In this document: positions 12,701-64,000 of the stretch, one piece after another | How positions within the stretch are numbered: position 1 is the stretch's first letter | Layout of the letters: each line of letters opens with the position of its first letter | NCBI GenBank assembly: GCA_034231615.1 | Contig: CM067309.1 | Coordinates: forward strand, 27,985,661-28,049,660 | Direction: 5' to 3' | Source: Meghimatium bilineatum | Taxonomy: Eukaryota > Mollusca > Gastropoda > Stylommatophora > Philomycidae | DNA length: 64,000 bases | The notes under the pieces: generated by a model | Told to the model about the DNA's origin: nothing | Seen by the model: only the letters and a program-made list of their open reading frames with translations | The model's database searches: none | Made by a program: the position numbers and the translations under genes

Positions 12701-12997
12701 TCTGAGTAATATGCCACAAAACACTGAGTTTTGACGTACTAAACAGCAAGACCTAATTTGTGTGTAATACCACAGTATTCTGACGTATTATGGTGCATTA
12801 CAACGAAATGATGTATAATAGGCCAGAATACACTCACTTCTAGTGTAGTAAGCTTCAGAGCAATGAATTTGTGAGTAATATGCCAGAATACACCGATATC
12901 TCACGTAGTAAGCTAGAATACACCAAATTCGTGTGTCCAGACTACAATTTCTGGTGTAATAAGCTGCAGTACACCCAATTTGTGTGTAATATGCCAC
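9796..12997. repeat. 2,086-bp tandem duplication within zone 2
   Basis: The modules beginning at 9,796, 10,248 and 10,699 recur at 11,882, 12,334 and 12,785, an offset of 2,086 bp. Both copies share the extra A in CACCAAAATTCG, the TTCTAGTATAG change and the GAGGAATATGACAG change. The third module pair is only partly matched: 10,702 carries GGTACATTACAACGAAACG and the later copy does not. Later exchange has therefore shuffled the right end. Confidence 0.75.
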
Positions 12998-25900: not shown

Positions 25901-26090
25901 TCAGAACAATGAATTTGTGAGTAATATGCCAGAATACACCGAGTTCTCACGTAGTAAGCTAGAATACACCAAATTCGTGTGTCCAGACTACAATTTCTGG
26001 TGTAGTAAGCTGCAGTACACCCAATTTGTGAATAATATGTCACAAAACACTGAGTTTTGACATACTAAACAGCAAGACCTAATTTGTGTA

Positions 26091-31862: not shown

Positions 31863-34800
31863 GTGAATAATATGTCACAAAACACTGTGTTTTGACGTAC
31901 TAAACAGCAAGAGCTAATGTGTGTGTAATACGACAGTATTCTGACGTATTATGCTGCATTACAACGAAATGATGTATAATAGGCCAGAATACACTCACTT
32001 CTAGTGTAGTAAGCTTCAGAACATTGAATTTGTGAGTAATATGACAGAATACATCGAGTTCTAACGTAGTAAGCTAGAATACACCAAATTCGTGTCCAGA
32101 CTGCAATTTCTGGTGTAGTAAGCTGCAGTACACCCAATTTGTGAGTAATATGCCATAGAACACTGAGTTTTGACGTACTAAACAGCAAGATACCTAATTT
32201 GTGTATAATTCACCAGTATTCTTAGTTATTAAGCTGCAAAACAACGAAGTCATGTGTAACAGGCCAGAATACACTCAATTCAAGGGTTGTAAGCTGCAGT
32301 ACACCCAATTTGTGTGTAATATGCCACAAAACACTGAGTTTTGACGTACTAAACTGCAAGACCTAATTTGTGTGTAATACGACAGTATTCTGACGTATTA
32401 TGGTGCATTACAACGAAATGATGTATAATAGGCCAGAATACACTCACTTCTAGTGTAGTAAGCTTCAGAACAATGAATTTGTGAGTAATATGCCAGAATA
32501 CACCGAGATCTCACGTAGTAAGCTAGAATACACCAAATTCGTGTGTCCAGACTACAATTTCTGGTGTAGTAAGCTGCAGTACACCAAATTTGTGAATAAT
32601 ATGTCACAAAACACTGAGTTTTGACATACTAAACAGCAAGACCTAATTTGTGTGTAATACGACAGTTTTCTGACGTATTATGGTGCATTACAACCAAATG
32701 ATGTATAATAGGCCAGAATAAACTCACTTCTAGTGTAGTAAGCTTCAGAACAATGAATTTGTGAGTAATATGCCAGAATACACCGAGTTCTCACGTAGTA
32801 AGCTAGAATACACCAAATTCGTGTGTCCAGACTACAATTTCTGGTGTAGTAAGCTGCAGTACACCCAATTTGTGAATAATATGTCACAAAACACTGAGTT
32901 TTGACATACTAAACAGCAAGATCTAATTTGTGTGTAATACGACAGTATTCTGACGTATTATGCTGCATTACATCGAAATGATGTATAATAGGCCAGAATA
33001 CACTCACTTCTAGTGTAGTAAGCTTCAGAACATTGAATTTGTGAGTAATATGACAGAATACATCGAGTTCTAACGTAGTAAGCTAGAATACACCAAATTC
33101 GTGTCCAGACTGCAATTTCTGGTGTAGTAAGCTGCAGTACACCCAATTTGTGAGTAATATGCCATAGAACACTGAGTTTTGACGTACTAAACAGCAAGAT
33201 ACCTAATTTGTGTATAATTCACCAGTGTTCTTAGTTATTAAGCTGCAAAACAACGAAGTCATGTGTAAGGCCAGAATACACTCAATTCAAGGGTTGTAAG
33301 ATGCAGTACACCCAATTTGTGAGTAATATGCCACAAAACACTGAGTTTTGACGTACTAAACAGCAAGACCTAATTTGTGTGTAATACGACAGTATTCTGA
33401 CGTATTATGCTGCATTACAACGAAATGATGTATAATAGGCCAGAATACACTCACTTCTAGTGTAGTAAGCTTCAGAACATTGAATTTGTGAGTAATATGC
33501 CAGAATACAACGAGTTCTAACGTAGTAAGCTAGAATACACCAAATTCGTGTGTCCAGACTGCAATTTCTGGTGTAGTAAGCTGCACTACACCCAATTTGT
33601 CAGTAATATGCTATAGAACACTGAGTTTTGACGTACTAACAGCAAGATACCTAATTTGTGTATAATTCACCAGTGTTCTTAGTTATTAAGCTGCAAAACA
33701 ACGAAGTCATGTGTAACAGGCCAGAATACACTCAATTCAAGGGTTGTAAGCTGCAGTACACCCAATTTGTGTGTAATATGCCACAAAACACTGAGTTTTG
33801 ACGTACTAAACTGCAAGACCTAATTTGTGTGTAATACGACAGTGTTCTGACGTATTATGGTGCATTACAACGAAATGATGTATAATAGGCCAGAATACAT
33901 TCACTTCTAGTGTAGTAAGCTTCAGAACAATGAATTTGTGAGTAATATGCCAGAATACACCGAGATCTCACGTAGTAAGCTAGAATACACCAAATTAGTG
34001 TGTCTAGACTACAATTTCAGGTGTAGTAAGCTGCAGTACACCAAATTTGTGAATAATATGTCACAAAACACTGAGTTTTGACATACTAAACAGCAAGACC
34101 TAATTTGTGTGTAATACGACAGTTTTCTGACGTATTATGGTGCATTACAACCAAATGATGTATAATAGGCCAGAATAAACTCACTTCTAGTGTAGTAAGC
34201 TTCAGAACAATGAATTTGTGAGTAATATGCCAGAATACACCGAGTTCTCACGTAGTAAGCTAGAATACACCAAATTCGTGTGTCCAGACTACAATTTCTG
34301 GTGTAGTAAGCTGCAGTACACCCAATTTGTGAATATGTCACAAAACACTGTGTTTTGACGTACTAAACAGCAAGAGCTAATGTGTGTGTAATACGACAGT
34401 ATTCTGACGTATTATGCTGCATTACAACGAAATGATGTATAATAGGCCAGAATACACTCACTTCTAGTGTAGTAAGCTTCAGAACAATGAATTTGTGAGT
34501 AATATGCCAAAATACAACGAGTTCTAACGTAGTAAGCTAGAATACACCAAATTCGTGTGTCCAGACTGCAATTTCTGGTGTAGTAAGCTGCAGTACACCC
34601 AATTTGTGAGTAATATGCCATAGAACACTGAGTTTTGACGTACTAAACAGCAAGATACCTAATTTGTGTATAATTCACCAGTGATCTTAGTTATTAAGCT
34701 GCAAAACAACGAAGTCATGTGTAACAGGCCAGAATACACTCAATTCAAGGGTTGTAAGATGCAGTACACCCAATTTGTGAGAAATATGCCACAAAACACT

Positions 34801-37800
34801 GAGTTTTGACGTACTAAACAGCAAGACCTAATTTGTGTGTAATACGACAGTATTCTGACGTATTATGCTGCATTACAACGAAATGATGTATAATAGGCCA
34901 GAATACACTCACTTCTAGTGTAGTATGCTTCAGAACATTGAATTTGTGAGTAATATGACAGAATACATCGAGTTCTAACGTAGTAAGCTAGAATACACAA
35001 AATTCGTGTCCAGACTGCAATTTCTCGTGTAGTAAGCTGCAGTACACCCAATTTGTGAGTAATATGCCATAGAACACTGAGTTTTGACGTACTAAACAGC
35101 AAGATACCTAATTTGTGTATAATTCACCAGTATTCTTAGTTATTAAGCTGCAAAACAACGAAGTCATGTGTAACAGGCCAGAATACACTCAATTCAAGGG
35201 TTGTAAGCTGCAGTACACCCAATTTGTGAGTAATATGCCACAAAACACTGAGTTTTGACGTACTAAACAGCATGACCTAATTTGTGTGTAATACGACAGT
35301 ATTCTGACGTATTCTGCTGCATTACAACGAAATGATGTATAATAGACCAGAATACACTCACTTCTAGTGTAGTAAGCTTCAGAACAATGAATTTGTGAGT
35401 AATATGCCAGAATACAACGAGTTCTAACGTAGTAAGCTAGAATACACCACATTCGTGTGTCCAGACTGCAATTTCTGGTGTAGTAAGCTGCAGTACACCC
35501 AATTTGTGAGTAATATGCCATAGAACACTGAGTTTTGACGAACTAAACAGCAAGATACCTAATTTGTGTATAATTCACCAGTGTTCTTAGTTATTAAGCT
35601 GCAAAACAACGAAGTCATGTGTAAGGCCAGAATACACTCAATTCAAGGGTTGTAAGATGCAGTACACCCAATTTGTGAGTAATATGCCACAAAACACTGA
35701 GTTTTGACGTACTAAACAGCAAGACCTAATTTGTGTGTAATACGACAGTATTCTGACGTATTATGCTGCATTACAGCGAAATGATGTATAATAGGCCAGA
35801 ATACACTCACTTCTAGTGTAGTAAGCTTCAGAACAATGAATTTGTGAGTAATATGCCAGAATACAACGAGTTCTAACGTAGTAAGCTAGAATACACCAAA
35901 TTCGTGTGTCCAGACTGCAATTTCTGGTGTAGTAAGCTGCAGTACACCCAATTTGTGAGTAATATGCCATAGAACACTGAGTTTTGACGTACTAAACAGC
36001 AAGATACCTAATTTGTGTATAATTCACCAGTGTTCTTAGTTATTAAGCTGCAAAACAACGAAGTCATGTGTAAGGCCAGAATACACTCAATTCAAGGGTT
36101 GTAAGATGCAGTACACCCAATTTGTGAGTAATATGCCACAAAACACTGAGTTTTGACGTACTAAACAGCATGACCTAATTTGTGTGTAATACGACAGTAT
36201 TCTGACGTATTATGCTGCATTACAACGAAATGATGTATAATAGGCCAGAATACACTCACTTCTAGTGTAGTAAGCTTCAGAACAATGAACTTGTGAGTAA
36301 TATGCCAAAATACAACGAGTTCTAACGTAGTAAGCTAGAATACACCAAATTCGTGTGTCCAGACTGCAATTTCTGGTGTAGTAAGCTGCAGTACACCCAA
36401 TTTGTGAATAATATGTCACAAAACACTGAGTTTTGACATACTAAACAGCAAGACCTAATTTGTGTGTAATACGACAGTATTCTGACGTATTATGCTGCAT
36501 TACAACGAAATGATGTATAATAGGCCAGAATACACTCACTTCTAGTGTAGTAAGCTTCAGAACAATGAACTTGTGAGTAATATGCCAAAATACAACGAGT
36601 TCTAACGTAGTAAGCTAGAATACACCAAATTCGTGTGTCCAGACTGCAATTTCTGGTGTAGTAAGCTGCAGTACACCCAATTTGTGAGTAATATGCCATA
36701 GAACACTGAGTTTTGACGTACTAAACAGCAAGATACCTAATTTGTGTATAATTCACCAGTGTTCTTAGTTATTAAGCTGCAAAACAACGAAGTCATGTGT
36801 AACAGGCCAGAATACACTCAATTCAAGGGTTGTAAGATGCAGTACACCCAATTTGTGAGTAATATGCCACAAAACACTGAGTTTTGACGTACTAAACAGC
36901 AAGACCTAATTTGTGTGTAATACGACAGTTTTCTGACGTATTATGCTGCATTACAACGAAATGATGTATAATAGGCCAGAATACACTCACTTCTAGTGTA
37001 GTAAGCTTCAGAACATTGAATTTGTGAGTAATATGACAGAATACATCGAGTTCTAACGTAGTAAGCTAGAATACACCAAATTCGTGTCCAGACTGCAATT
37101 TCTGGTGTAGTAAGCTGCAGTACACCCAATTTGTGAGTAATATGCCATAGAACACTGAGTTTTGACGTACTAAACAGCAAGATACCTAATTTGTGTATAA
37201 TTCACCAGTATTATTAGTTATTAAGCTGCAAAACAACGAAGTCATGTGTAACAGGCCAGAATACACTCAATTCAAGGGTTGTAAGCTGCAGTACACCCAA
37301 TTTGTGTGTAATATGCCACAAAACACTGAGTTTTGACGTACTAAACTGCAAGACCTAATTTGTGTGTAATACGACAGTTTTCTGACGTATTATGGTGCAT
37401 TACAACCAAATGATGTATAATAGGCCAGAATAAACTCACGTCTAGTGTAGTAAGCTTCAGAACAATGAATTTGTGAGTAATATGCCAGAATACACCGAGT
37501 TCTCACGTAGTAAGCTAGAATACACCAAATTCGTGTGTCCAGACTACAATTTCTGGTGTAGTAAGCTGCAGTACACCCAATTTGTGAATAATATGTCACA
37601 AAACACTGAGTTTTGACATACTAAACAGCAAGATCTAATTTGTGTGTAATACGACAGTATTCTGACGTATTATGCTGCATTACAACGAAATGATGTATAA
37701 TAGGCCAGAATACACTCACTTCTAGTGTAGTAAGCTTCAGAACATTGAATTTGTGAGTAATATGACAGAATACATCGAGTTCTAACGTAGTAAGCTAGAA

Positions 37801-38551
37801 TACACCAAATTCGTGTCCAGACTGCAATTTCTGGTGTAGTAAGCTGCAGTACACCCAATTTGTGAGTAATATGCCATAGAACACTGAGTTTTGACGTACT
37901 AAACAGCAAGATACCTAATTTGTGTATAATTCACCAGTGTTCTTAGTTATTAAGCTGCAAAACAACGAAGTCATGTGTAACAGGCCAGAATACACTCAAT
38001 TCAAGGGTTGTAAGCTGCAGTAAACCCAATTTGTGAGTAATATGCCACAAAACACTGAGTTTTGACGTACTAAACAGCAAGACCTAATTTGTGTGTAATA
38101 CCACAGTATTCTGACGTATTATGGTGCATTACAACGAAATGATGTATAATATGCCAGAATACACTCACTTCTAGTGTAGTAAGCTTCAGAACAATGAATT
38201 TGTGAGTAATATGCCAGAATACACCGATATCTCACGTAGTAAGCTAGAATACACCAAATTCGTGTGTCCAGACTGCAATTTCTGGTGTAGTAAGCTGCAG
38301 TACACCCAATTTGTGAGTAATATGCCATAGAACACTGAGTTTTGACGTACTAAACAGCAAGATACCTAATTTGTGTATAATTCACCAGTGTTCTTAGTTA
38401 TTAAGCTGCAAAACAACGAAGTCATGTGTAACAGGCCAGAATACACTCAATTCAAGGGTTGTAAGATGCAGTACACCCAATTTGTGAGTAATATGCCACA
38501 AAACACTGAGTTTTGACGTACTAAACTGCAAGACCTAATTTGTGTGTAATA
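31863..38551. repeat. Satellite array, zone 4 (left flank of the first mariner copy)
   Basis: Satellite of the same type as zone 1, running to the TA (38,550-38,551) that precedes the first mariner copy. Modules at 34,132, 34,409, 34,860, 35,186, 35,758, 36,487 and 36,938 match 813, 1,090, 1,541, 1,867, 2,439, 3,168 and 3,619 at offset 33,319. The last module before the element has AATATGCCAGAATACACTC in S1, where most modules have AATAGGCCAG. This private change is shared by all three element flanks. No gene is present. Confidence 0.94.
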
Positions 38552-38582
38552 CGAGGCGTGTTCAAATGAAAACGGGACTTGT
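38552..38582 (+). repeat. Left terminal inverted repeat, mariner copy 1
   Basis: These 31 bp begin CGAGGCGTGTTC and end GGGACTTGT. They are the exact reverse complement of 39,245-39,275, and the match stops after base 31 (next T versus G). Terminal repeats of about 30 bp next to a TA are typical of mariner elements and are where the transposase binds. Confidence 0.96.
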
Positions 38583-38712
38583 TACACCACGCGTGATAGA
38601 GCGCACTGATATTGATGACATTTTGCACTAGTAATGAGTATCCAATAATTTACATACGGTCACGTGTTCATCTTCCCAGCATGCATATGTGCTGTAGAAG
38701 ACTGTTAACAAT

Positions 38713-39153
38713 ATGGCGGGTGTGATTCCGAACCCGTCCAAAGTGAATCAGCGTGCTGTGATCCAGTTTCTTTCATTTGAAGGATGTCAAGCAGTAGACA
38801 TTCATCGGAGAATGAAGGCTAAGCGACCAGGCAGACTTTCTCAAGGTGTGATTCTTCTCCACGACAACGCTCGTCCGCACGTCGCAAAAATTGTGCAGGA
38901 AACATTGGCAAAGAAGAATTGGGAAGTTCTTCATCACCCAGCCTATAGTCCCGATTTATCCCCGTGTGATTTCCATTTGTTCGGACCGTTGAAGAAAGCA
39001 CTAAAGGGACAGCGATTCAACAGCGACGCAGACGTGAAGACAGCGGTGACCACATGGTTCAGAGAACAGCCACGCAACTTTTTCTCGGACGGCATTCGAC
39101 GTCTACCTAAACAGTGGGATGCTTGCCTAAATGCATACGGAGATTTTTTCTGA
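38713..39153 (+). CDS. Internally deleted mariner transposase ORF (146 aa), copy 1
   Basis: The ORF starts at an ATG with A at -3 and G at +4 and ends at TGA. Residues about 10-34 (NQRAVIQFLSFEG, DIHRRM) match the first helix-turn-helix of mariner transposases. From about residue 35 the sequence jumps to KRPGRLSQGVILLHDNARPH, which in full-length proteins lies just before the second catalytic aspartate. D51 (HDNARPH) and D86 (SPDLSPCDFHLF) are separated by 34 residues, the DD34D mariner spacing. The C-terminus reads WDACLNAYGDFF. Full-length family members have about 340-350 residues, so about 200 are missing, including the second helix-turn-helix, the linker and the first catalytic aspartate. 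Catalysis is therefore not expected. The deletion kept the frame, so a DNA-binding or inhibitory peptide is possible but unproven. Confidence 0.9.
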   Translation: MAGVIPNPSKVNQRAVIQFLSFEGCQAVDIHRRMKAKRPGRLSQGVILLHDNARPHVAKIVQETLAKKNWEVLHHPAYSPDLSPCDFHLFGPLKKALKGQRFNSDADVKTAVTTWFREQPRNFFSDGIRRLPKQWDACLNAYGDFF

Positions 39154-39235
39154 TGAACCCAGGTGCATTCTTATTCACAAGTGGTTGCTTTGTTCAATTC
39201 CGTTGAAAATATTAAATTGCGTATGATACTTTTTA

Positions 39236-39241
39236 AATAAA
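39236..39241 (+). promoter_or_regulatory. Polyadenylation signal AATAAA, mariner copy 1
   Basis: A canonical AATAAA lies 82 bp after the ORF stop and just before the right terminal repeat. It could direct 3'-end formation of an element transcript. The match is short and no expression evidence is available. Confidence 0.5.
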
Positions 39242-39244
39242 TCC

Positions 39245-39275
39245 ACAAGTCCCGTTTTCATTTGAACACGCCTCG
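39245..39275 (-). repeat. Right terminal inverted repeat, mariner copy 1
   Basis: Exact 31-bp reverse complement of the left terminal repeat. The junction with satellite reads CCTCGTACGACAG, creating an 8-bp palindrome TCGTACGA that includes a BsiWI site (CGTACG). I noticed that site only at the element junctions. Confidence 0.96.
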
Positions 39276-42200
39276 TACGACAGTATTCTGACGTATTATG
39301 CTGCATTACAACGAAATGATGTATAATAGGCCAGAATACACTCACTTCTAGTGTAGTAAGCTTCAGAACATTGAATTTGTGAGTAATATGACAGAATACA
39401 TCGAGTTCTAACGTAGTAAGCTAGAAAACACCAAATTCGTGTCCAGACTGCAATTTCTGGTGTAGTAAGCTGCAGTACACCCAATTTGTGAGTAATATGC
39501 CATAGAACACTGAGTTTTGACGTACTAAACAGTAAGATACCTAATTTGTGTATAATTCACCAGTATTCTTAGTTATTAAGCTGCAAAACAACGAAGTCAT
39601 GTGTAACAGGCCAGAATACACTCAATTAAAGGGTTGTAAGCTGCAGTACACCCAATTTGTGTGTAATATGCCACAAAACACTGAGTTTTGACGTACTAAA
39701 CAGCATGACCTAATTTGTGTGTAATACGACAGTATTCTGACGTATTCTGCTGCATTACAACGAAATGATGTATAATAGACCAGAATACACTCACTTCTAG
39801 TGTAGTAAGCTTCAGAACAATGAATTTGTGAGTAATATGCCAGAATACAACGAGTTCTAACGTAGTAAGCTAGAATACACCAAATTCGTGTGTCCAGACT
39901 GCAATTTCTGGTGTAGTAAGCTGCACTACACCCAATTTGTCAGTAATATGCTATAGAACACTGAGTTTTGACGTACTAACAGCAAGATACCTAATTTGTG
40001 TAATTCACCAGTGTTCTTAGTTATTAAGCTGCAAAACAACGAAGCCATGTGTAACAGGCCAGAATACACTCAATTCAAGTGTAGTAAGCTGCAGTACACC
40101 CATTTTGTGAGTAATATGCCACAAAACACTGAGTTTTGACGTAATAAACAGCAAGACCTAATTTGTGTGTAATACGACAGTATTCTGACGTATTATGCTG
40201 CATTACAGCGAAATGATGTATAATAGGCCAGAATACACTCACTTCTAGTGTAGTAAGCTTCAGAACAATGAATTTGTGAGTAATATGCCAGAATACAACG
40301 AGTTCTAACGTAGTAAGCTAGAATACACCAAATTCGTGTGTCCAGACTGCAATTTCTGGTGTAGTAAGCTGCAGTACACCCAATTTGTGAGTAATATGCC
40401 ATAGAACACTGAGTTTTGACGTACTAAACAGCAAGATACCTAATTTGTGTATAATTCACCAGTGTTCTTAGTTATTAAGCTGCAAAACAACGAAGTCATG
40501 TGTAAGGCCAGAATACACTCAATTCAAGGGTTGTAAGATGCAGTACACCCAATTTGTGAGTAATATGCCACAAAACACTGAGTTTTGACGTACTAAACAG
40601 CATGACCTAATTTGTGTGTAATACGACAGTATTCTGACGTATTATGCTGCATTACAACGAAATGATGTATAATAGGCCAGAATACACTCACTTCTAGTGT
40701 AGTAAGCTTCAGAACAATGAACTTGTGAGTAATATGCCAAAATACAACGAGTTCTAACGTAGTAAGCTAGAATACACCAAATTCGTGTGTCCAGACTGCA
40801 ATTTCTGGTGTAGTAAGCTGCAGTACACCCAATTTGTGAATAATATGTCACAAAACACTGAGTTTTGACATACTAAACAGCAAGACCTAATTTGTGTGTA
40901 ATACGACAGTATTCTGACGTATTATGCTGCATTACAACGAAATGATGTATAATAGGCCAGAATACACTCACTTCTAGTGTAGTAAGCTTCAGAACAATGA
41001 ACTTGTGAGTAATATGCCAAAATACAACGAGTTCTAACGTAGTAAGCTAGAATACACCAAATTCGTGTGTCCAGACTGCAATTTCTGGTGTAGTAAGCTG
41101 CAGTACACCCAATTTGTGAGTAATATGCCATAGAACACTGAGTTTTGACGTACTAAACAGCAAGATACCTAATTTGTGTATAATTCACCAGTGTTCTTAG
41201 TTATTAAGCTGCAAAACAACGAAGTCATGTGTAACAGGCCAGAATACACTCAATTCAAGGGTTGTAAGATGCAGTACACCCAATTTGTGAGTAATATGCC
41301 ACAAAACACTGAGTTTTGACGTACTAAACAGCAAGACCTAATTTGTGTGTAATACGACAGTTTTCTGACGTATTATGCTGCATTACAACGAAATGATGTA
41401 TAATAGGCCAGAATACACTCACTTCTAGTGTAGTAAGCTTCAGAACATTGAATTTGTGAGTAATATGACAGAATACATCGAGTTCTAACGTAGTAAGCTA
41501 GAATACACCAAATTCGTGTCCAGACTGCAATTTCTGGTGTAGTAAGCTGCAGTACACCCAATTTGTGAGTAATATGCCATAGAACACTGAGTTTTGACGT
41601 ACTAAACAGCAAGATACCTAATTTGTGTATAATTCACCAGTATTATTAGTTATTAAGCTGCAAAACAACGAAGTCATGTGTAACAGGCCAGAATACACTC
41701 AATTCAAGGGTTGTAAGCTGCAGTACACCCAATTTGTGTGTAATATGCCACAAAACACTGAGTTTTGACGTACTAAACTGCAAGACCTAATTTGTGTGTA
41801 ATACGACAGTTTTCTGACGTATTATGGTGCATTACAACCAAATGATGTATAATAGGCCAGAATAAACTCACGTCTAGTGTAGTAAGCTTCAGAACAATGA
41901 ATTTGTGAGTAATATGCCAGAATACACCGAGTTCTCACGTAGTAAGCTAGAATACACCAAATTCGTGTGTCCAGACTACAATTTCTGGTGTAGTAAGCTG
42001 CATTACACCCAATTTGTGAATAATATGTCACAAAACACTGAGTTTTGACATACTAAACAGCAAGATCTAATTTGTGTGTAATACGACAGTATTCTGACGT
42101 ATTATGCTGCATTACAACGAAATGATGTATAATAGGCCAGAATACACTCACTTCTAGTGTAGTAAGCTTCAGAACATTGAATTTGTGAGTAATATGACAG

Positions 42201-42983
42201 AATACATCGAGTTCTAACGTAGTAAGCTAGAATACACCAAATTCGTGTCCAGACTGCAATTTCTGGTGTAGTAAGCTGCAGTACACCCAATTTGTGAGTA
42301 ATATGCCATAGAACACTGAGTTTTGACGTACTAAACAGCAAGATACCTAATTTGTGTATAATTCACCAGTGTTCTTAGTTATTAAGCTGCAAAACAACGA
42401 AGTCATGTGTAACAGGCCAGAATACACTCAATTCAAGGGTTGTAAGCTGCAGTAAACCCAATTTGTGAGTAATATGCCACAAAACACTGAGTTTTGACGT
42501 ACTAAACAGCAAGACCTAATTTGTGTGTAATACCACAGTATTCTGACGTATTATGGTGCATTACAACGAAATGATGTATAATATGCCAGAATACACTCAC
42601 TTCTAGTGTAGTAAGCTTCAGAACAATGAATTTGTGAGTAATATGCCAGAATACACCGATATCTCACGTAGTAAGCTAGAATACACCAAATTCGTGTGTC
42701 CAGACTGCAATTTCTGGTGTAGTAAGCTGCAGTACACCCAATTTGTGAGTAATATGCCATAGAACACTGAGTTTTGACGTACTAAACAGCAAGATACCTA
42801 ATTTGTGTATAATTCACCAGTGTTCTTAGTTATTAAGCTGCAAAACAACGAAGTCATGTGTAACAGGCCAGAATACACTCAATTCAAGGGTTGTAAGATG
42901 CAGTACACCCAATTTGTGAGTAATATGCCACAAAACACTGAGTTTTGACGTACTAAACTGCAAGACCTAATTTGTGTGTAATA
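39276..42983. repeat. Satellite array, zone 5 (between mariner copies 1 and 2)
   Basis: Satellite only, beginning and ending with the TA target duplications. The first module has GCTAGAAAACACC and AATTAAAGGGTTG, shared with the right flanks of copies 2 and 3. Near 40,145-40,180 the sequence switches to a copy of the region that starts near 35,746, and then repeats that region up to the next element. No gene is present. Confidence 0.94.
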
Positions 42984-43014
42984 CGAGGCGTGTTCAAATG
43001 AAAACGGGACTTGT
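42984..43014 (+). repeat. Left terminal inverted repeat, mariner copy 2
   Basis: 31 bp beginning CGAGGCGTGTTC, the exact reverse complement of 43,677-43,707. Confidence 0.95.
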
Positions 43015-43144
43015 TACACCACGCGTGATAGAGCGCACTGATATTGATGACATTTTGCACTAGTAATGAGTATCCAATAATTTACATACGGTCACGTGTT
43101 CATCTTCCCAGCATGCATATGTGCTGTAGAAGACTGTTAACAAT

Positions 43145-43585
43145 ATGGCGGGTGTGATTCCGAACCCGTCCAAAGTGAATCAGCGTGCTGTGATCCAGTT
43201 TCTTTCATTTGAAGGATGTCAAGCAGTAGACATTCATCGGAGAATGAAGGCTAAGCGACCAGGCAGACTTTCTCAAGGTGTGATTCTTCTCCACGACAAC
43301 GCTCGTCCGCACGTCGCAAAAATTGTGCAGGAAACATTGGCAAAGAAGAATTGGGAAGTTCTTCATCACCCAGCCTATAGTCCCGATTTATCCCCGTGTG
43401 ATTTCCATTTGTTCGGACCGTTGAAGAAAGCACTAAAGGGACAGCGATTCAACAGCGACGCAGACGTGAAGACAGCGGTGACCACATGGTTCAGAGAACA
43501 GCCACGCAACTTTTTCTCGGACGGCATTCGACGTCTACCTAAACAGTGGGATGCTTGCCTAAATGCATACGGAGATTTTTTCTGA
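43145..43585 (+). CDS. Internally deleted mariner transposase ORF (146 aa), copy 2
   Basis: The encoded protein is identical to that of copy 1. It has a partial N-terminal helix-turn-helix (residues about 10-34), a deletion junction near residue 35, catalytic D51 and D86 with 34 residues between them, and the C-terminal AYGDFF. The first catalytic aspartate is absent, so it should not be an active transposase. Identity between copies reflects recent segmental duplication. It cannot be read as purifying selection, because the surrounding satellite is equally similar. Confidence 0.9.
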   Translation: MAGVIPNPSKVNQRAVIQFLSFEGCQAVDIHRRMKAKRPGRLSQGVILLHDNARPHVAKIVQETLAKKNWEVLHHPAYSPDLSPCDFHLFGPLKKALKGQRFNSDADVKTAVTTWFREQPRNFFSDGIRRLPKQWDACLNAYGDFF

Positions 43586-43667
43586 TGAACCCAGGTGCAT
43601 TCTTATTCACAAGTGGTTGCTTTGTTCAATTCCGTTGAAAATATTAAATTGCGTATGATACTTTTTA

Positions 43668-43673
43668 AATAAA
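43668..43673 (+). promoter_or_regulatory. Polyadenylation signal AATAAA, mariner copy 2
   Basis: Same position in the element as in copy 1: after the ORF and just inside the right terminal repeat. It is a motif match only. Confidence 0.5.
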
Positions 43674-43676
43674 TCC

Positions 43677-43707
43677 ACAAGTCCCGTTTTCATTTGAACA
43701 CGCCTCG
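43677..43707 (-). repeat. Right terminal inverted repeat, mariner copy 2
   Basis: Exact 31-bp inverted copy of 42,984-43,014. The junction again forms TCGTACGA with the satellite. Confidence 0.95.
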
Positions 43708-46700
43708 TACGACAGTATTCTGACGTATTATGCTGCATTACAACGAAATGATGTATAATAGGCCAGAATACACTCACTTCTAGTGTAGTAAGCTTCAGAA
43801 CATTGAATTTGTGAGTAATATGACAGAATACATCGAGTTCTAACGTAGTAAGCTAGAAAACACCAAATTCGTGTCCAGACTGCAATTTCTGGTGTAGTAA
43901 GCTGCAGTACACCCAATTTGTGAGTAATATGCCATAGAACACTGAGTTTTGACGTACTAAACAGTAAGATACCTAATTTGTGTATAATTCACCAGTATTC
44001 TTAGTTATTAAGCTGCAAAACAACGAAGTCATGTGTAACAGGCCAGAATACACTCAATTAAAGGGTTGTAAGCTGCAGTACACCCAATTTGTGTGTAATA
44101 TGCCACAAAACACTGAGTTTTGACGTACTAAACAGCATGACCTAATTTGTGTGTAATACGACAGTATTCTGACGTATTCTGCTGCATTACAACGAAATGA
44201 TGTATAATAGACCAGAATACACTCACTTCTAGTGTAGTAAGCTTCAGAACAATGAATTTGTGAGTAATATGCCAGAATACAACGAGTTCTAACGTAGTAA
44301 GCTAGAATACACCAAATTCGTGTGTCCAGACTGCAATTTCTGGTGTAGTAAGCTGCACTACACCCAATTTGTCAGTAATATGCTATAGAACACTGAGTTT
44401 TGACGTACTAACAGCAAGATACCTAATTTGTGTAATTCACCAGTGTTCTTAGTTATTAAGCTGCAAAACAACGAAGCCATGTGTAACAGGCCAGAATACA
44501 CTCAATTCAAGTGTAGTAAGCTGCAGTACACCCATTTTGTGAGTAATATGCCACAAAACACTGAGTTTTGACGTAATAAACAGCAAGACCTAATTTGTGT
44601 GTAATACGACATTTTTCTGACGTATTATGCTGCATTACAACGATATGATGTACAATAGGCCAGAATACACTCACTTCTAGTGTGTTAAGCTTCAGAAGAT
44701 TGAATTTGTGAGTAATATGACAGAATACAACAAGTTCTAACTTAGAAAGCTAGAATACACCAAATTCGTGTCCAGACTGCAATTTCTGGTGTAGTAAGCT
44801 GCAGTACACCCAATTTGTGAGTAATATGCCATAGAACACTGAGTTTTGACGTACTAAACAGCAAGATACCTAATTTGTGTATAATTCACCAGTGTTCTTA
44901 GTTATTAAGCTGCAAAACAACGAAGTCATGTGTAACAGGCCAGAATACACTCAATTCAAGTGTAGTAAGCTGCAGTACACCCAATTTGTGAGTAATATGC
45001 CACAAAACACTGAGTTTTGACGTACTAAACTGCAAGACCTAATTTGTGTGTAATACGACAGTATTCTGACGTATTATGGTGCATTACAACGAAATGATGT
45101 ATAATAGGCCAGAATACACTCACTTCTAGTGTAGTAAGCTTCAGAACAATGAATTTGTGAGTAATATGCCAGAATACACCGATATCTCACGTAGTAAGCT
45201 AGAATACACCAAATTCGTGTCCAGACTACAATTTCTGGTGTAGTAAGCTGCAGTACACCCAATTTGTGAATAATATGTCACAAAACACTGAGTTTTGACA
45301 GACTAAACAGCAAGACCTAATTTGTGTGTAATACGACAGTATTCTGACGTATTATGCTGCATTACAACGAAATGATGTATAATAGGCCAGAATACACTCA
45401 CTTCTAGTGTAGTAAGCTTCAGAACAATGAATTTGTGAGTAATATGCCAGAATACAACGAGTTCTAACGTAGTAAGCTAGAATACACCAAATTCGTGTGT
45501 CCAGACTGCAATTTCTGGTGTAGTAAGCTGCAGTACACCCAATTTGTGAGTAATATGCCATAGAACACTGAGTTTTGACGTACTAAACAGCAAGATACCT
45601 AATTTGTGTATAATTCACCAGTGTTCTTAGTTATTAAGCTGCAAAACAACGAAGTCATGTGTAACAGGCCAGAATACACTCAATTCAAGGGTTGTAAGCT
45701 GCAGTACACCCAATTTGTGAGTAATATGCCACAAAACACTGAGTTTTGACGTACTAAACAGCAAGACCTAATTTGTGTGTAATACGACAGTATTCTGACG
45801 TATTATGCTGCATTACAACGAAATGATGTATAATAGGCCAGAATACACTCACTTCTAGTGTAGTAAGCTTCAGAACATTGAATTTGTGAGTAATATGACA
45901 GAATACATCGAGTTCTAACGTAGTAAGCTAGAATACACCAAATTCGTGTCCAGACTGCAATTTCTGGTGTAGTAAGCTGCAGTACACCCAATTTGTGAGT
46001 AATATGCCATAGAACACTGAGTTTTGACGTACTAAACAGCAAGATACCTAATTTGTGTATAATTCACCAGTATTCTTAGTTATTAAGCTGCAAAACAACG
46101 AAGTCATGTGTAACAGGCCAGAATACACTCAATTCAAGGGTTGTAAGCTGCAGTAAACCCAATTTGTGAGTAATATGCCAGAAAACACCGAGATCTCACG
46201 TAGTAAGCTAGAATACACCAAATTCGTGTGTCCAGACTACAATTTCTGGTGTAGTAAGCTGCAGTACACCCAATTTGTGTGTAATATGCCACAAAACACT
46301 GAGTTTTGACGTACTAAACTGCAAGACCTAATTTGTGTGTAATACGACAGTTTTCTGACGTATTATGGTGCATTACAACCAAATGATGTATAATAGGCCA
46401 GAATAAACTCACGTCTAGTGTAGTAAGCTTCAGAACAATGAATTTGTGAGTAATATGCCAGAATACACCGAGTTCTCACGTAGTAAGCTAGAATACACCA
46501 AATTCGTGTGTCCAGACTACAATTTCTGGTGTAGTAAGCTGCAGTACACCCAATTTGTGAATAATATGTCACAAAACACTGAGTTTTGACATACTAAACA
46601 GCAAGATCTAATTTGTGTGTAATACGACAGTATTCTGACGTATTATGCTGCATTACAACGAAATGATGTATAATAGGCCAGAATACACTCACTTCTAGTG

Positions 46701-47524
46701 TAGTAAGCTTCAGAACATTGAATTTGTGAGTAATATGACAGAATACATCGAGTTCTAACGTAGTAAGCTAGAATACACCACATTCGTGTCCAGACTGCAA
46801 TTTCTGGTGTAGTAAGCTGCAGTACACCCAATTTGTGAGTAATATGCCATAGAACACTGAGTTTTGACGTACTAAACAGCAAGATACCTAATTTGTGTAT
46901 AATTCACCAGTGTTCTTAGTTATTAAGCTGCAAAACAACGAAGTCATGTGTAACAGGCCAGAATACACTCAATTCAAGGGTTGTAAGCTGCAGTAAACCC
47001 AATTTGTGAGTAATATGCCACAAAACACTGAGTTTTGACGTACTAAACAGCAAGACCTAATTTGTGTGTAATACCACAGTATTCTGACGTATTATGGTGC
47101 ATTACAACGAAATGATGTATAATATGCCAGAATACACTCACTTCTAGTGTAGTAAGCTTCAGAACAATGAATTTGTGAGTAATATGCCAGAATACACCGA
47201 TATCTCACGTAGTAAGCTAGAATACACCAAATTCGTGTGTCCAGACTGCAATTTCTGGTGTAGTAAGCTGCAGTACACCCAATTTGTGAGTAATATGCCA
47301 TAGAACACTGAGTTTTGACGTACTAAACAGCAAGATACCTAATTTGTGTATAATTCACCAGTGTTCTTAGTTATTAAGCTGCAAAACAACGAAGTCATGT
47401 GTAACAGGCCAGAATACACTCAATTCAAGGGTTGTAAGATGCAGTACACCCAATTTGTGAGTAATATGCCACAAAACACTGAGTTTTGACGTACTAAACT
47501 GCAAGACCTAATTTGTGTGTAATA
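43708..47524. repeat. Satellite array, zone 6 (between mariner copies 2 and 3)
   Basis: Satellite only. Its first part continues past the point where copy 1's flank switches. It contains GACATTTTTCTGACG and CGATATGATGTACAAT near 44,610-44,650, as in zone 1 at about 9,330-9,380. It includes the unusual 560-bp module described separately and ends at the TA 47,523-47,524. Confidence 0.94.
45800..46359. repeat. Expanded 560-bp long module with ten subrepeats
   Basis: This is a long module with 111 extra bp. At 46,140-46,199 the subrepeat starts as S7 (GTTGTAAGCTGCAGTAAACC) but ends as S2 (GCCAGAAAACACCGAGATCTCAC). A normal S3 (46,200-46,250), an S4/S7-type subrepeat (46,251-46,310) and S8 (46,311-46,359) follow. 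The crossover lies in the shared GTGAGTAATATGCCA stretch. The event explains why copies 2 and 3 are 111 bp further apart on this side than the corresponding 449-bp module would give. Confidence 0.85.
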
Positions 47525-47555
47525 CGAGGCGTGTTCAAATGAAAACGGGACTTGT
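47525..47555 (+). repeat. Left terminal inverted repeat, mariner copy 3
   Basis: 31 bp beginning CGAGGCGTGTTC, the exact reverse complement of 48,218-48,248. Confidence 0.95.
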
Positions 47556-47685
47556 TACACCACGCGTGATAGAGCGCACTGATATTGATGACATTTTGCA
47601 CTAGTAATGAGTATCCAATAATTTACATACGGTCACGTGTTCATCTTCCCAGCATGCATATGTGCTGTAGAAGACTGTTAACAAT

Positions 47686-48126
47686 ATGGCGGGTGTGATT
47701 CCGAACCCGTCCAAAGTGAATCAGCGTGCTGTGATCCAGTTTCTTTCATTTGAAGGATGTCAAGCAGTAGACATTCATCGGAGAATGAAGGCTAAGCGAC
47801 CAGGCAGACTTTCTCAAGGTGTGATTCTTCTCCACGACAACGCTCGTCCGCACGTCGCAAAAATTGTGCAGGAAACATTGGCAAAGAAGAATTGGGAAGT
47901 TCTTCATCACCCAGCCTATAGTCCCGATTTATCCCCGTGTGATTTCCATTTGTTCGGACCGTTGAAGAAAGCACTAAAGGGACAGCGATTCAACAGCGAC
48001 GCAGACGTGAAGACAGCGGTGACCACATGGTTCAGAGAACAGCCACGCAACTTTTTCTCGGACGGCATTCGACGTCTACCTAAACAGTGGGATGCTTGCC
48101 TAAATGCATACGGAGATTTTTTCTGA
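47686..48126 (+). CDS. Internally deleted mariner transposase ORF (146 aa), copy 3
   Basis: The protein is identical to copies 1 and 2, with the same in-frame deletion after residue about 34, the last two aspartates of the DD34D triad (D51, D86) and no first aspartate. No SET domain or other fusion partner is visible upstream or downstream, since the element is surrounded by satellite. The ORF is a remnant carried as part of a higher-order satellite repeat. Confidence 0.9.
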   Translation: MAGVIPNPSKVNQRAVIQFLSFEGCQAVDIHRRMKAKRPGRLSQGVILLHDNARPHVAKIVQETLAKKNWEVLHHPAYSPDLSPCDFHLFGPLKKALKGQRFNSDADVKTAVTTWFREQPRNFFSDGIRRLPKQWDACLNAYGDFF

Positions 48127-48208
48127 TGAACCCAGGTGCATTCTTATTCACAAGTGGTTGCTTTGTTCAATTCCGTTGAAAATATTAAATTGCGTATGAT
48201 ACTTTTTA

Positions 48209-48214
48209 AATAAA
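48209..48214 (+). promoter_or_regulatory. Polyadenylation signal AATAAA, mariner copy 3
   Basis: Same relative position as in the other two copies. It is a motif match only. Confidence 0.5.
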
Positions 48215-48217
48215 TCC

Positions 48218-48248
48218 ACAAGTCCCGTTTTCATTTGAACACGCCTCG
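48218..48248 (-). repeat. Right terminal inverted repeat, mariner copy 3
   Basis: Exact 31-bp inverted copy of 47,525-47,555, with TCGTACGA at the satellite junction. Confidence 0.95.
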
Positions 48249-51200
48249 TACGACAGTATTCTGACGTATTATGGTGCATTACAACGAAATGATGTATAAT
48301 AGGCCAGAATACACTCACTTCTAGTGTAGTAAGCTTCAGAACAATGAATTTGTGAGTAATATGCCAGAATACACCGATATCTCACGTAGTAAGCTAGAAT
48401 ACACCAAATTCGTGTGTCCAGACTACAATTTCTGGTGTAGTAAGCTGCAGTACACCCAATTTGTGAATAATATGTCACAAAACACTGAGTTTTGACATAC
48501 TAAACAGCAAGACCTAATTTGTGTGTAATACGACAGTATTCTGACGTATTATGCTGCATTACAACGAAATGATGTATAATAGGCCAGAATACACTCACTT
48601 CTAGTGTAGTAAGCTTCACAACAATGAATTTGTGAGTAATATGCCAGAATACAACGAGTTCTAACGTAGTAAGCTAGAATACACCAAATTCGTGTGTCCA
48701 GACTGCAATTTCTGGTGTAGTAAGCTGCAGTACACCCAATTTGTGAGTAATATGCCATAGAACACTGAGTTTTGACGTACTAAACAGCAAGATACCTAAT
48801 TTGTGTATAATTCACCAGTGTTCTTAGTTATTAAGCTGCAAAACAACGAAGTCATGTGTAACAGGCCAGAATACACTCAATTCAAGGTTTGTAAGCTGCA
48901 GTACACCCAATTTGTGAGTAATATGCCACAAAACACTGAGTTTTGACGTACTAAACAGCAAGACCTAATTTGTGTGTAATACGACAGTATTCTGACGTAT
49001 TATGCTGCATTACAACGAAATGATGTATAATAGGCCAGAATACACTCACTTCTAGTGTAGTAAGCTTCAGAACATTGAATTTGTGAGTAATATGACAGAA
49101 TACATCGAGTTCTAACGTAGTAAGCTAGAAAACACCAAATTCGTGTCCAGACTGCAATTTCTGGTGTAGTAAGCTGCAGTACACCCAATTTGTGAGTAAT
49201 ATGCCATAGAACACTGAGTTTTGACGTACTAAACAGTAAGATACCTAATTTGTGTATAATTCACCAGTATTCTTAGTTATTAAGCTGCAAAACAACGAAG
49301 TCATGTGTAACAGGCCAGAATACACTCAATTAAAGGGTTGTAAGCTGCAGTACACCCAATTTGTGTGTAATATGCCACAAAACACTGAGTTTTGACGTAC
49401 TAAACAGCATGACCTAATTTGTGTGTAATACGACAGTATTCTGACGTATTCTGCTGCATTACAACGAAATGATGTATAATAGACCAGAATACACTCACTT
49501 CTAGTGTAGTAAGCTTCAGAACAATGAATTTGTGAGTAATATGCCAGAATACAACGAGTTCTAACGTAGTAAGCTAGAATACACCAAATTCGTGTGTCCA
49601 GACTGCAATTTCTGGTGTAGTAAGCTGCGCTACACCCAATTTGTCAGTAATATGCTATAGAACACTGAGTTTTGACGTACTAACAGCAAGATACCTAATT
49701 TGTGTAATTCACCAGTGTTCTTAGTTATTAAGCTGCAAAACAACGAAGCCATGTGTAACAGGCCAGAATACACTCAATTCAAGTGTAGTAAGCTGCAGTA
49801 CACCCATTTTGTGAGTAATATGCCACAAAACACAGAGTTTTGACGTAATAAACAGCAAGACCTAATTTGTGTGTAATACGACATTTTTCTGACGTATTAT
49901 GCTGCATTACAACGATATGATGTACAATAGGCCAGAATACACTCACTTCTAGTGTGTTAAGCTTCAGAAGATTGAATTTGTGAGTAATATGACAGAATAC
50001 AACAAGTTCTAACTTAGAAAGCTAGAATACACCAAATTCGTGTCCAGACTGCAATTTCTGGTGTAGTAAGCTGCAGTACACCCAATTTGTGAGTAATATG
50101 CCATAGAACACTGAGTTTTGACGTACTAAACAGCAAGATACCTAATTTGTGTATAATTCACCAGTGTTCTTAGTTATTAAGCTGCAAAACAACGAAGTCA
50201 TGTGTAACAGGCCAGAATACACTCAATTCAAGTGTAGTAAGCTGCAGTACACCCAATTTGTGAGTAATATGCCACAAAACACTGAGTTTTGACGTACTAA
50301 ACTGCAAGACCTAATTTGTGTGTAATACGACAGTATTCTGACGTATTATGGTGCATTACAACGAAATGATGTATAATAGGCCAGAATACACTCACTTCTA
50401 GTGTAGTAAGCTTCAGAACAATGAATTTGTGAGTAATATGCCAGAATACACCGATATCTCACGTAGTAAGCTAGAATACACCAAATTCGTGTCCAGACTA
50501 CAATTTCTGGTGTAGTAAGCTGCAGTACACCCAATTTGTGAATAATATGTCACAAAACACTGAGTTTTGACAGACTAAACAGCAAGACCTAATTTGTGTG
50601 TAATACGACAGTATTCTGACGTATTATGCTGCATTACAACGAAATGATGTATAATAGGCCAGAATACACTCACTTCTAGTGTAGTAAGCTTCAGAACAAT
50701 GAATTTGTGAGTAATATGCCAGAATACAACGAGTTCTAACGTAGTAAGCTAGAATACACCAAATTCGTGTGTCCAGACTGCAATTTCTGGTGTAGTAAGC
50801 TGCAGTACACCCAATTTGTGAGTAATATGCCATAGAACACTGAGTTTTGACGTACTAAACAGCAAGATACCTAATTTGTGTATAATTCACCAGTGTTCTT
50901 AGTTATTAAGCTGCAAAACAACGAAGTCATGTGTAACAGGCCAGAATACACTCAATTCAAGGGTTGTAAGCTGCAGTACACCCAATTTGTGAGTAATATG
51001 CCACAAAACACTGAGTTTTGACGTACTAAACAGCAAGACCTAATTTGTGTGTAATACGACAGTATTCTGACGTATTATGCTGCATTACAACGAAATGATG
51101 TATAATAGGCCAGAATACACTCACTTCTAGTGTAGTAAGCTTCAGAACATTGAATTTGTGAGTAATATGACAGAATACATCGAGTTCTAACGTAGTAAGC

Positions 51201-51399
51201 TAGAATACACCAAATTCGTGTCCAGACTGCAATTTCTGGTGTAGTAAGCTGCAGTACACCCAATTTGTGAGTAATATGCCATAGAACACTGAGTTTTGAC
51301 GTACTAAACAGCAAGATACCTAATTTGTGTATAATTCACCAGTATTCTTAGTTATTAAGCTGCAAAACAACGAAGTCATGTGTAACAGGCCAGAATACA
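48249..51399. repeat. Satellite array, zone 7 (right flank of mariner copy 3)
   Basis: Satellite only. The first 731 bp (a short plus a long module) are missing at copies 1 and 2 but match the region right of the empty site at 7,701. From 48,997 onward the sequence follows 43,725 onward at offset 5,272, including GCTAGAAAACACC, the GTCAGTAATATGCTATAG haplotype and CGATATGATGTACAAT. No gene is present. Confidence 0.93.
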
Positions 51400-53877
51400 C
51401 TCAATTCAAGGGTTGTAAGCTGCAGTACACCCAATTTGTGAGTAATATGCCACAAAACACTGGGTTTTGACGTACTAAACAGCATGACCTAATTTGTGTG
51501 TAATACGACAGTATTCTGACGTATTCTGCTGCATTACAACGAAATGATGTATAATAGACCAGAATACACTCACTTCTAGTGTAGTAAGCTTCAGAACAAT
51601 GAATGTGTGAGTAATATGCCAGAATACAACGAGTTCTAACGTAGTAAGCTAGAATACACCAAATTCGTGTGTCCAGACTGCAATTTCTGGTGTAGTAAGC
51701 TGCACTACACCCAATTTGTCAGTAATATGCTATAGAACACTGAGTTTTGACGTACTAACAGCAAGATACCTAATTTGTGTATAATTCACCAGTGTTCTTA
51801 GTTATTAAGCTGCAAAACAACGAAGCCATGTGTAACAGGCCAGAATACACTCAATTCAAGTGTAGTAAGCTGCAGTACACCCATTTTGTGAGTAATATGC
51901 CACAAAACACTGAGTTTTGACGTAATAAACAGCAAGACCTAATTTGTGTGTAATACGACATTTTTCTGACGTATTATGCTGCATTACAACGATATGATGT
52001 ATAATAGGCCAGAATACACTCACTTCTAGTGTGTTAAGCTTCAGAACATTGAATTTGTGAGTAATATGACAGAATACAACAAGTTCTAACGTAGAAAGCT
52101 AGAATACACCAAATTCGTGTCCAGACTGCAATTTATGGTGTAGTAAGCTGCAGTACACCCAATTTGTGAGTAATATGCCATAGAACACTGAGTTTTGACG
52201 TACTAAACAGCAAGATACCTAATTTGTGTATAATTCACCAGTGTTCTTAGTTATTAAGCTGCAAAACAACGAAGTCATGTGTAACAGGCCAGAATACACT
52301 CAATTCAAGGGTTGTAAGCTGCAGTACACCCAATTTGTGAGTAATATGCCACAAAACACTGAGTTTTGACGTACTAAACAGCAAGACCTAATTTGTGTGT
52401 AATACGACAGTATTCTGACGTATTATGCTGCAATACAACGAAATGATGTATAATAGGCCAGAATACACTCACTTCTAGTGTAGTAAGCTTCAGAACATTG
52501 AATTTGTGAGTAATATGACAGAATACATCGAGTTCTAACGTAGTAAGCTAGAATACACCAAATTCGTGTCCAGACTGCAATTGCTGGTGTAGTAAGCTGC
52601 AGTACACCCAATTTGTGAGTAATATGCCATAGAACACTGAGTTTTGACGTACTAAACAGCAAGATACCTAATTTGTGTATAATTCACCAGTGTTCTTAGT
52701 TATTAAGCTGCAAAACAACGAAGTCATGTGTAACAGGCCAGAATACACTCAATTCAAGGGTTGTAAGCTGCAGTACACCCAATTTGTGTGTAATATGCCA
52801 CAAAACACTGAGTTTTGACGTACTAAACTGCAAGACCTAATGTGTGTGTAATACGACAGTATTCTGACGTATTATGGTGCAATACAACGAAATGATGTAT
52901 AATAGGCCAGAATACACTCACTTCTAGTGTAGTAAGCTTCAGAACAATGAATTTGTGAGTAATATGCCAGAATACACCGAGATCTCACGTAGTAAGCTAG
53001 AATACACCAAATTCGTGTGTCCAGACTACAATTTCTGGTGTAGTAAGCTGCAGTACACCAAATTTGTGAATAATATGTCACAAAACACTGAGTTTTGACA
53101 TACTAAACAGCAAGACCTATTTTGTGTGTAATACGACAGTTTTCTGACGTATTATGGTGCATTACAACCAAATGATGTATAATAGGCCAGAATAAACTCA
53201 CTTCTAGTGTAGTAAGCTTCAGAACAATGAATTTGTGAGTAATATGCCAGAATACACCGAGTTCTCACGTAGTAAGCTAGAATACACCAAATTCGTGTGT
53301 CCAGACTACAATTTCTGGTGTAGTAAGCTGCAGTACACCCAATTTGTGAATAATATGTCACAAAACTGAGTTTTGACATACTAAACAGCAAGACCTAATT
53401 TGTGTGTAATACGACAGTATTCTGACGTATTATGCTGCATTACAACGAAATGATGTATAATAGGCCAGAATACACTCACTTCTAGTGTAGTAAGCTTCAG
53501 AACAATGAATTTGTGAGTAATATGCCAGAATACAACGAGTTCTAACGTAGTAAGCTAGAATACACCAAATTCGTGTGTCCAGACTGCAATTTCTGGTGTA
53601 GTAAGCTGCAGTACACCCAATTTGTGAGTAATATGCCATAGAACACTGAGTTTTGACGTACTAAACAGCAAGATACCTAATTTGTGTATAATGCACCAGT
53701 GTTCTTAGTTATTAAGCTGCAAAACAACAAAGTCATGTGTAACAGGCCAGAATACACTCAATTCAAGGGTTGTAAGCTGCAGTACACCCAATTTGTGAGT
53801 AATATGCCACAAAACACTGAGTTTTGACGTACTAAACAGCAAGACGTAATTTGTGTGTAATACGACAGTATTCTGAC

Positions 53878-56800: not shown

Positions 56801-57133
56801 TTTGACGTACTAAACTGCAAGACCTAATTTGTGTGTAATACCACAGTATTCTGACGTATTATGGTGCATTACAACGAAATGATGTATAATAGGCCAGAAT
56901 ACACTCACTTCTAGTGTAGTAAGCTTCAGAACAATGAATTTGTGAGTAATATGCCAGAATACACCGATATCTCACGTAGTAAGCTAGAATACACCAAATT
57001 CGTGTCCAGACTACAATTTCTGGTGTAGTAAGCTGCAGTACACCCAATTTGTGAATAATATGTCACAAAACACTGAGTTTTGACAGACTAAACAGCAAGA
57101 CCTAATTTGTGTGTAATACGACAGTATTCTGAC
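53878..57133. repeat. 1,628-bp tandem duplication (higher-order period)
   Basis: 53,878-55,505 is followed by a second copy at 55,506-57,133. Shared rare variants at offset 1,628 are CAGACGGCAATTTC, CGAAATTATGTATAAT (54,352/55,980), GAACACTTAGTTTAGACG (54,541/56,169) and CAGCATTACCTAATT (54,738/56,366). The same 1,628-bp offset also links GACATTTTTCTG at 57,851 and 59,479. 1,628 bp equals three long modules plus one short one. Confidence 0.85.
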
Positions 57134-57415
57134 GTATTATGCTGCATTACAACGAAATGATGTATAATAGGCCAGAATACACTCACTTCTAGTGTAGTAA
57201 GCTTCAGAACAATGAATTTGTGAGTAATATGCCAGAATACAACGAGTTCTAACGTAGTAAGCTAGAATACACCACATTCGTGTGTCCAGACTGCAATTTC
57301 TGGTGTAGTAAGCTGCAGTACACCCAATTTGTGAGTAATATGCCATAGAACACTGAGTTTTGACGTACTAAACAGCAAGATACCTAATTTGTGTATAATT
57401 CACCAGTATTCTGAC
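57134..57415. repeat. Chimeric 282-bp module with an S5/S8 fusion
   Basis: Subrepeats are 60+60+51+60+51 bp. The last one (57,365-57,415) starts as S5 (GCAAGATACCTAATTTGTGTATAATTCACC) and ends as S8 (CAGTATTCTGAC), then passes directly into a GTATTATG box. S6, S7 and most of S8 are missing. The exchange lies in the shared AGTATTCT segment. This short module was formed by a different deletion from the standard 280-bp type. Confidence 0.85.
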
Positions 57416-63400: not shown

Positions 63401-64000
63401 TGACAGAATACATCGAGTTCTAACGTAGTAAGCTAGAATACACCAAATTCGTGTCCAGACTGCAATTGCTGGTGTAGTAAGCTGCAGTACACCCAATTTG
63501 TGAGTAATATGCCATAGAACACTGAGTTTTGACGTACTAAACAGCAAGATACCTAATTTGTGTATAATTCACCAGTATTCTTAGTTATTAAGCTGCAAAA
63601 CAACGAAGTCATGTGTAACAGGCCAGAATACACTCAATTCAAGGGTTGTAAGCTGCAGTACACCCAATTTGTGAGTAATATGCCACAAAACACTGAGTTT
63701 TGACGTAATAAACAGCAAGACCTAATTTGTGTGTAATACGACATTTTTCTGACGTATTCTGCTGCATTACAACGATATGATGTATAATAGGCCAGAATAC
63801 ACTCACTTCTAGTGTGTTAAGCTTCAGAACATTGAATTTGTGAGTAATATGACAGAATACAACAAGTTCTAACGTAGAAAGCTAGAATACACCAAATTCG
63901 TGTCCAGACTGCAATTTATGGTGTAGTAAGCTGCAGTACACCCAATTTGTGAGTAATATGCCATAGAACACTGAGTTTTGACGTACTAAATAGCAAGATA

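Follow-up and report, generated by a model that had tools for sequence, protein, structure and literature searches.

Three mariner copies in a gastropod satellite array as the probable outcome of one insertion and two local tandem duplications

Copies of ATHILA, which differs from the element treated here in being a long terminal repeat (LTR) retrotransposon of a plant centromere, have reportedly been multiplied after insertion by rearrangement of the centromere satellite of Arabidopsis. Mariners within satellite DNA are described for Messor ants, where five Mboumar copies are reported at the same TA of the repeat IRE-130 and an in vitro test found no hot spot (PMC2581405). For the degenerate R2 elements in the ribosomal DNA (rDNA) of Bacillus rossius, called a 'dead element replicating', multiplication by unequal recombination has been argued (PMC4370867), and two reviews treat transposons and satellites in general (PMC9659126 and PMC12628747). 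Here we describe three copies (E1, E2, and E3) of a 724-bp mariner derivative in a satellite array of the gastropod Meghimatium bilineatum (assembly GCA_034231615.1), found in a stretch of 64,000 bp on contig CM067309.1 (C12:27985661-28049660), hereafter the window. One insertion, followed by a 5,272-bp duplication, a 731-bp deletion, and a 4,432-bp duplication, very probably explains all three copies.

The Messor case and the present one both have mariner copies within satellite DNA, several of which share one TA of the repeat. In contrast to Messor, where the same-TA copies were discussed as a possible hot spot, the flanks here show one duplicated insertion, and the element of the present array is non-autonomous. 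With the R2 elements of B. rossius, the locus shares the proposed gain of copies by inactive elements via unequal recombination of a tandem host repeat. R2 is a non-LTR retrotransposon with a specific rDNA site, whereas here a DNA transposon that inserts at TA lies in a satellite and the breakpoints are resolved. The marks of the process known from R2 in rDNA are found here as well: the copies have a common target duplication, their extended flanks resemble each other more closely than the array's other repeats do, and both offset and tract length fit tandem duplication (4,467 bp at 4432; 2,448 bp at 5272). The process is already known from R2 in rDNA and mariner in an ant satellite; what is new is the detailed, base-resolved history. 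The array and the three elements are as follows.

1..64000, no strand: satellite array with ~60-bp subrepeats and modules of ~280 and ~450 bp, extending upstream of the window
38552..39275, + strand: E1, 724-bp internally deleted mariner, identical to E2 and E3, with 31-bp terminal inverted repeats and a TA duplication
42984..43707, + strand: E2, 724-bp internally deleted mariner, identical to E1 and E3
47525..48248, + strand: E3, 724-bp internally deleted mariner with the inferred original right flank

A first-pass annotation of the window had reported three identical mariners at the same TA in the same orientation, and this is borne out: the 724-bp sequences show 0 differences, their terminal inverted repeats are perfect over 31 bp, and all three are flanked by TA on both sides at one homologous satellite site, on the + strand. 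The BsiWI site of the right junction, which the annotation had offered as a marker, occurs exactly three times in the window. The reading frame of E1-E3 consists of ~36 residues from the N-terminus of a mariner transposase fused to its C-terminal third, the middle being lost, and this remnant matches Mos1 (E 7.6e-29), SETMAR (E 8e-24), and the Pfam domain DDE_3 (3.5e-8). Between its last two acidic positions, which we take to be catalytic residues, lie 34 residues, as in the D34D spacing; the first acidic position falls outside the remnant. By these features, E1-E3 qualify as a non-autonomous derivative of the Tc1/mariner superfamily, mariner (DD34D). Since derivatives of 896 and 932 bp elsewhere in the genome retain sequence that E1-E3 lack and the deletion junction carries a short AAGGC repeat, the 724-bp form fits an internal deletion between short repeats. 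No match to the element was found in a plasmid collection.

In the proposed history, a single insertion would have placed a 724-bp non-autonomous mariner derivative at a TA within a satellite module. Misaligned modules would then have undergone unequal exchange, producing a 5,272-bp tandem duplication with two elements, of which the left copy would have lost 731 bp (a 280-bp plus a 450-bp module) directly after the element's right end. In another unequal exchange, this time at a conserved site of the module, this left copy would have been duplicated in tandem over 4,432 bp as E1 and E2. Unequal exchange is most likely the process behind both duplications, rather than another form of tandem duplication; the order of events and the lack of an active part for the element are what we infer.

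The step that is probably the most recent concerns E1 and E2, whose agreement at an offset of 4,432 bp spans both flanks and the element.

35713..40179, no strand: first member of the 4,432-bp tandem duplication, with E1; 1 mismatch (at 37571) to the second member in 4,467 bp
40145..44611, no strand: second member of the 4,432-bp tandem duplication, with E2, at offset 4432

Satellite modules in the window are marked by three kinds of site, labelled A, B, and C. The tract common to E1 and E2 equals the offset plus 35 bp, and the members overlap by this amount; the overlapping 35 bp include an A site and recur unchanged at 35713, 40145, and 44577. Because the 4,467-bp tract exceeds the offset by just these 35 bp, A site included, the pattern is the trace that one tandem duplication by exchange at a conserved site would be expected to leave.

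The relation of E3 to the other two is more complex and involves two offsets.

37281..38551, no strand: left flank of E1, common to all three copies (41713-42983 at E2, 46254-47524 at E3)
43708..46155, no strand: right flank of E2; its homologue at 48980-51427, offset 5272, differs at 2 of 2,448 bp
48980..51427, no strand: homologue of the E2 right flank, beginning 731 bp past E3
48249..48979, no strand: 731 bp adjoining E3 and missing beside E1 and E2 (5272-4541 = 731)
46156..46253, no strand: junction zone of the 5,272-bp duplication, with up to 98 bp of common satellite

Over the 1,271 bp of the left flank, one mismatch separates E1 from E2, one E1 from E3, and two E2 from E3. At an offset of 4,541 bp, E2 and E3 agree over this flank and the element; to the right the match is exact for 25 bp, where it stops. 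The first-pass annotation had equated the spacing of the elements with that of the surrounding satellite landmarks. This holds for E1 and E2, with 4,432 bp on both sides; for E2 and E3 it does not, as the right-hand landmarks lie at 5,272 bp, and this long right-flank homology led us to reject a simple 4,541-bp unit. In the junction zone, the match to 51428 onward weakens from 46156, with 2 mismatches up to 46188 and dense ones after it, and identity with the E1 left flank begins at 46254; the 98 bp in between recur unchanged at many places in the array. For the 731-bp deletion, a homology block of ~167 bp with 8 mismatches is available, and the breakpoint lies in its first 25 bp. Together, E2 and E3 differ at 4 of 4,443 bases (left 2/1,271, element 0/724, right 2/2,448) and E1 and E2 at 1 of 4,467, and the 5,272-bp event is therefore probably the older of the two.

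Two inferred breakpoints out of three coincide with the A site, which is also the insertion site, namely those of the 4,432-bp duplication (35713-35747, 40145-40179, and 44577-44611) and of the 731-bp deletion (48249-48273); the A site may simply be the best conserved stretch. The position of the deletion breakpoint within 25 bp next to the element is also the point in favour of a break at the element's right end, e.g. by an abortive transposase cut, having seeded the deletion, in which case a defective mariner would help to remodel its own satellite; we regard this as improbable.

The original surroundings of the insertion can be recognised from element-free relatives elsewhere in the window.

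6431..8431, no strand: element-free paralogue with the empty site at 7700-7701, relative of the E1 and E3 flanks
481..2981, no strand: element-free relative of the farther left flank of E1 (33800-36300), 11 mismatches in 2,501 bp and no gap

The paralogue differs from the 1,271-bp left flanks by 10 mismatches at E1 and 11 at E3. It also matches the right flank of E3 with 4 mismatches in 1,401 bp, and its positions 7700-8431 match the 731-bp stretch beside E3 with 2 mismatches in 732. Over a longer distance, the left side of E1 follows the surroundings of the paralogue in two registers that differ by one 280-bp module: 35748-37347 shows 10 mismatches in 1,600 bp, and 37348-38551 shows 4 in 1,204. 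Six differences from the paralogue at 37298-37347 are common to E1 and E3 and equal the paralogue's neighbouring module; the 280-bp difference is thus the older of the two, and a later 280-bp deletion was dropped as an explanation for this reason. Ungapped identity at register -31130 ends at 35713. A break in the left side of E1 at this point, which would have told against E1 as the keeper of the original left flank, was ruled out, as the flank continues at register -33319, where the match of 33800-36300 to 481-2981 runs unbroken through the boundary. Because the element-free paralogue matches both sides and the left side of E1 is unbroken past 35713, the left side appears to be original at E1 and the right side at E3, which fits an origin of the stretch between them by tandem duplication of one insertion. 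Between the element locus (33800-49649) and its element-free relative (481-9100), the registers lie 2,189 and 280 bp apart, so that a 2,189-bp unit may have been added or lost here at an earlier time.

These matches also bear on whether gene conversion or break-induced copying might have copied a patch of ~2 kb, element included, to a third place, taking the role of a duplication and a later deletion. At a single offset E3 shares with E1 and E2 only 1,271 bp on the left, the element, and 25 exact bp on the right, as such a patch would. Its right flank, however, matches the element-free paralogue, so that E3 looks to be the original context there and not the recipient, and tandem duplication accounts for the 5,272-bp offset of the right flanks; we consider patch copying quite unlikely.

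Whether the flanks carry changes of their own was examined over gap-free sequence of 264 kb, i.e. the window plus 200 kb upstream (C12:27785661-27985660), which served for all array comparisons. According to the first-pass annotation, the three elements share a private change in the left flank. This is confirmed for the 264 kb, though not for the string by itself: AATATGCCAG is common, with 525 occurrences on the + strand; what is unique to the three elements is a pair of AATATGCCAG 60 bp apart, found only at 38148, 42580, and 47121. A privacy test of flank changes with a 2% limit, based on alignments that included neighbouring registers, listed 37440 and 38466, which are rare elsewhere and not absent, and left out 38152, where T by itself is no rarity, with 76 occurrences among 573 alignments of 1,150 bp or more.

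Duplications of comparable size are found throughout the same sequence. Chaining of exact matches of at least 150 bp gave 26 recent tracts that measure 2 kb or more and have no more than 6 mismatches; counted by hand, as pairs of places rather than independent events, 22 of them do not involve the element. The 200 kb upstream contain many kilobase-scale recent duplications without the element, e.g. 4,059 bp identical at an offset of 8,220 bp and 3,485 bp identical at an offset of 3,447 bp. Because such element-free duplications are common, events of this size appear to be routine for this satellite, and the element, which need not be their cause, has the look of a passenger; the idea that it promotes local duplication is unsupported by these counts. 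They also enter into the question of whether one or both duplications at the element locus are false. Satellite arrays are hard to assemble, and the E1 and E2 blocks differ by only 1 base in 4,467. Against an assembly artefact, which we hold to be very unlikely, stand the distinct junctions and differences that mark the copies, including the 731 bp by which E2 and E3 differ on the right, and the similar duplications across the array, although these come from the same assembly.

Beyond the array, searches of the 1.61-Gb assembly (32 contigs) yielded nine more copies of the 724-bp form, one of them 723 bp long, with two each on C1 and C2 and one each on C11, C12 (at 34.45 Mb), C14, C19, and C22. 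They also yielded three derivatives of other kinds (C9, C17, and C22); these counts are lower bounds, an 886-bp derivative on C24 being absent from the search results. The nine dispersed copies carry the same internal deletion as E1-E3, and all are flanked by TA, as are the loci L053, L054, L055, and L057; at L007 and L049 the last element base is altered and then followed by TA. These four loci are internally deleted mariners of 896, 932, 702, and 886 bp, respectively, with the same ends and each with its own TA site. The flanks of the nine dispersed copies (500 bp on each side) match neither one another nor the satellite. As each of the nine sits at a TA site unrelated to the others, the family has moved by transposition, the satellite copies being one branch of it. 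The first-pass description of the element as amplified "not by transposition" can thus be retained for the three satellite copies and not for the family.

An exact search for the left junction found five places genome-wide: the three in the array, and one each on C23 and C24, both outside the satellite (a distant element on C23 and the 886-bp derivative at an unrelated site on C24). No other left junction within satellite was found genome-wide with this exact pattern, which altered junctions would escape. Where an element-bearing higher-order repeat would form many regular units across the array, there are three copies, and the 200 kb upstream contain no element-bearing repeat. Judged by exact junctions, E1-E3 are a local cluster of three and not a spreading higher-order repeat. 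The shared TA and flanks uphold the earlier proposal of one insertion multiplied inside the satellite; the multiplying higher-order repeat that was part of it is not supported, as two local duplications and one deletion suffice.

Insertion on three separate occasions at a favoured TA of the module is barely credible and was rejected on the shared flanks. The same TA and orientation would suit such a hot spot, as would the five Mboumar copies at one TA of a repeated element in Messor, for which a hot spot was proposed (PMC2581405). However, over 1.3 to 4.5 kb the flanks are almost as similar to each other as the elements are, while the closest element-free relative of the 1,271-bp left flank reaches 99.21% and the next 97.95%; the shared pair of changes stands beside all three and nowhere else in the 264 kb; no other copy occurs in the 200 kb upstream, and 650 empty sites of the insertion-site class (one substitution allowed) are present among the 26,686 TA dinucleotides of the 264 kb; and the dispersed copies sit at unrelated TAs.

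Several observations weigh against the history of one insertion, two duplications, and one deletion. The paralogue is not an exact empty allele, as the number of modules differs and registers -33319, -31130, and -30850 are all needed for the left side of E1. The mismatch counts behind the order of events are small (4 vs. 1). A clean in-register crossover does not account for the junction of the 5,272-bp duplication: with up to 98 bp of common satellite between its sides, either one more small event or a partner that has diverged must be assumed. The history rests on one assembly, in which one of the duplications could be an error at the low probability given above for an artefact. Finally, element position 144, which has T in E1, E2, and E3 and C in all nine dispersed copies of the 724-bp type and to that extent speaks for the proposed history, is a shared polymorphism and a weak marker, as T also occurs in two other derivatives and the 886-bp derivative on C24 has C; a third derivative is gapped there.

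Outside the elements the window consists of satellite throughout. Eight of 20 2-kb samples taken around it contain satellite, at 27.49 to 27.94 Mb, and 12 do not (two on the left and ten on the right), from which the array extends roughly from 27.3-27.5 to 28.05-28.10 Mb, with the elements close to its right edge. Besides the three elements, a single stretch of at least 40 bp in the 264 kb lacks satellite matches; these 109 bp, at C12:27841861, proved to be ordinary satellite near a chunk edge of the script. The satellite of the window contains 6,258 TA dinucleotides. At 46064 and 57400, the next site after a B site is a C site, at ~172 bp, resembling hybrid junctions of out-of-register exchange.

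The locus offers a base-resolved case of a DNA transposon gaining copies via satellite turnover, with element-free relatives, original flanks, and breakpoints all visible. It also suggests a simple test for transposons found at the same site in satellites: comparing flank identity and offsets before calling a hot spot separates hot spots from satellite duplication. Of the 12 copies of the 724-bp form compared (three in the satellite and nine dispersed), the three in the satellite represent one of ten insertion sites, and satellite copy counts can therefore overstate transposition.

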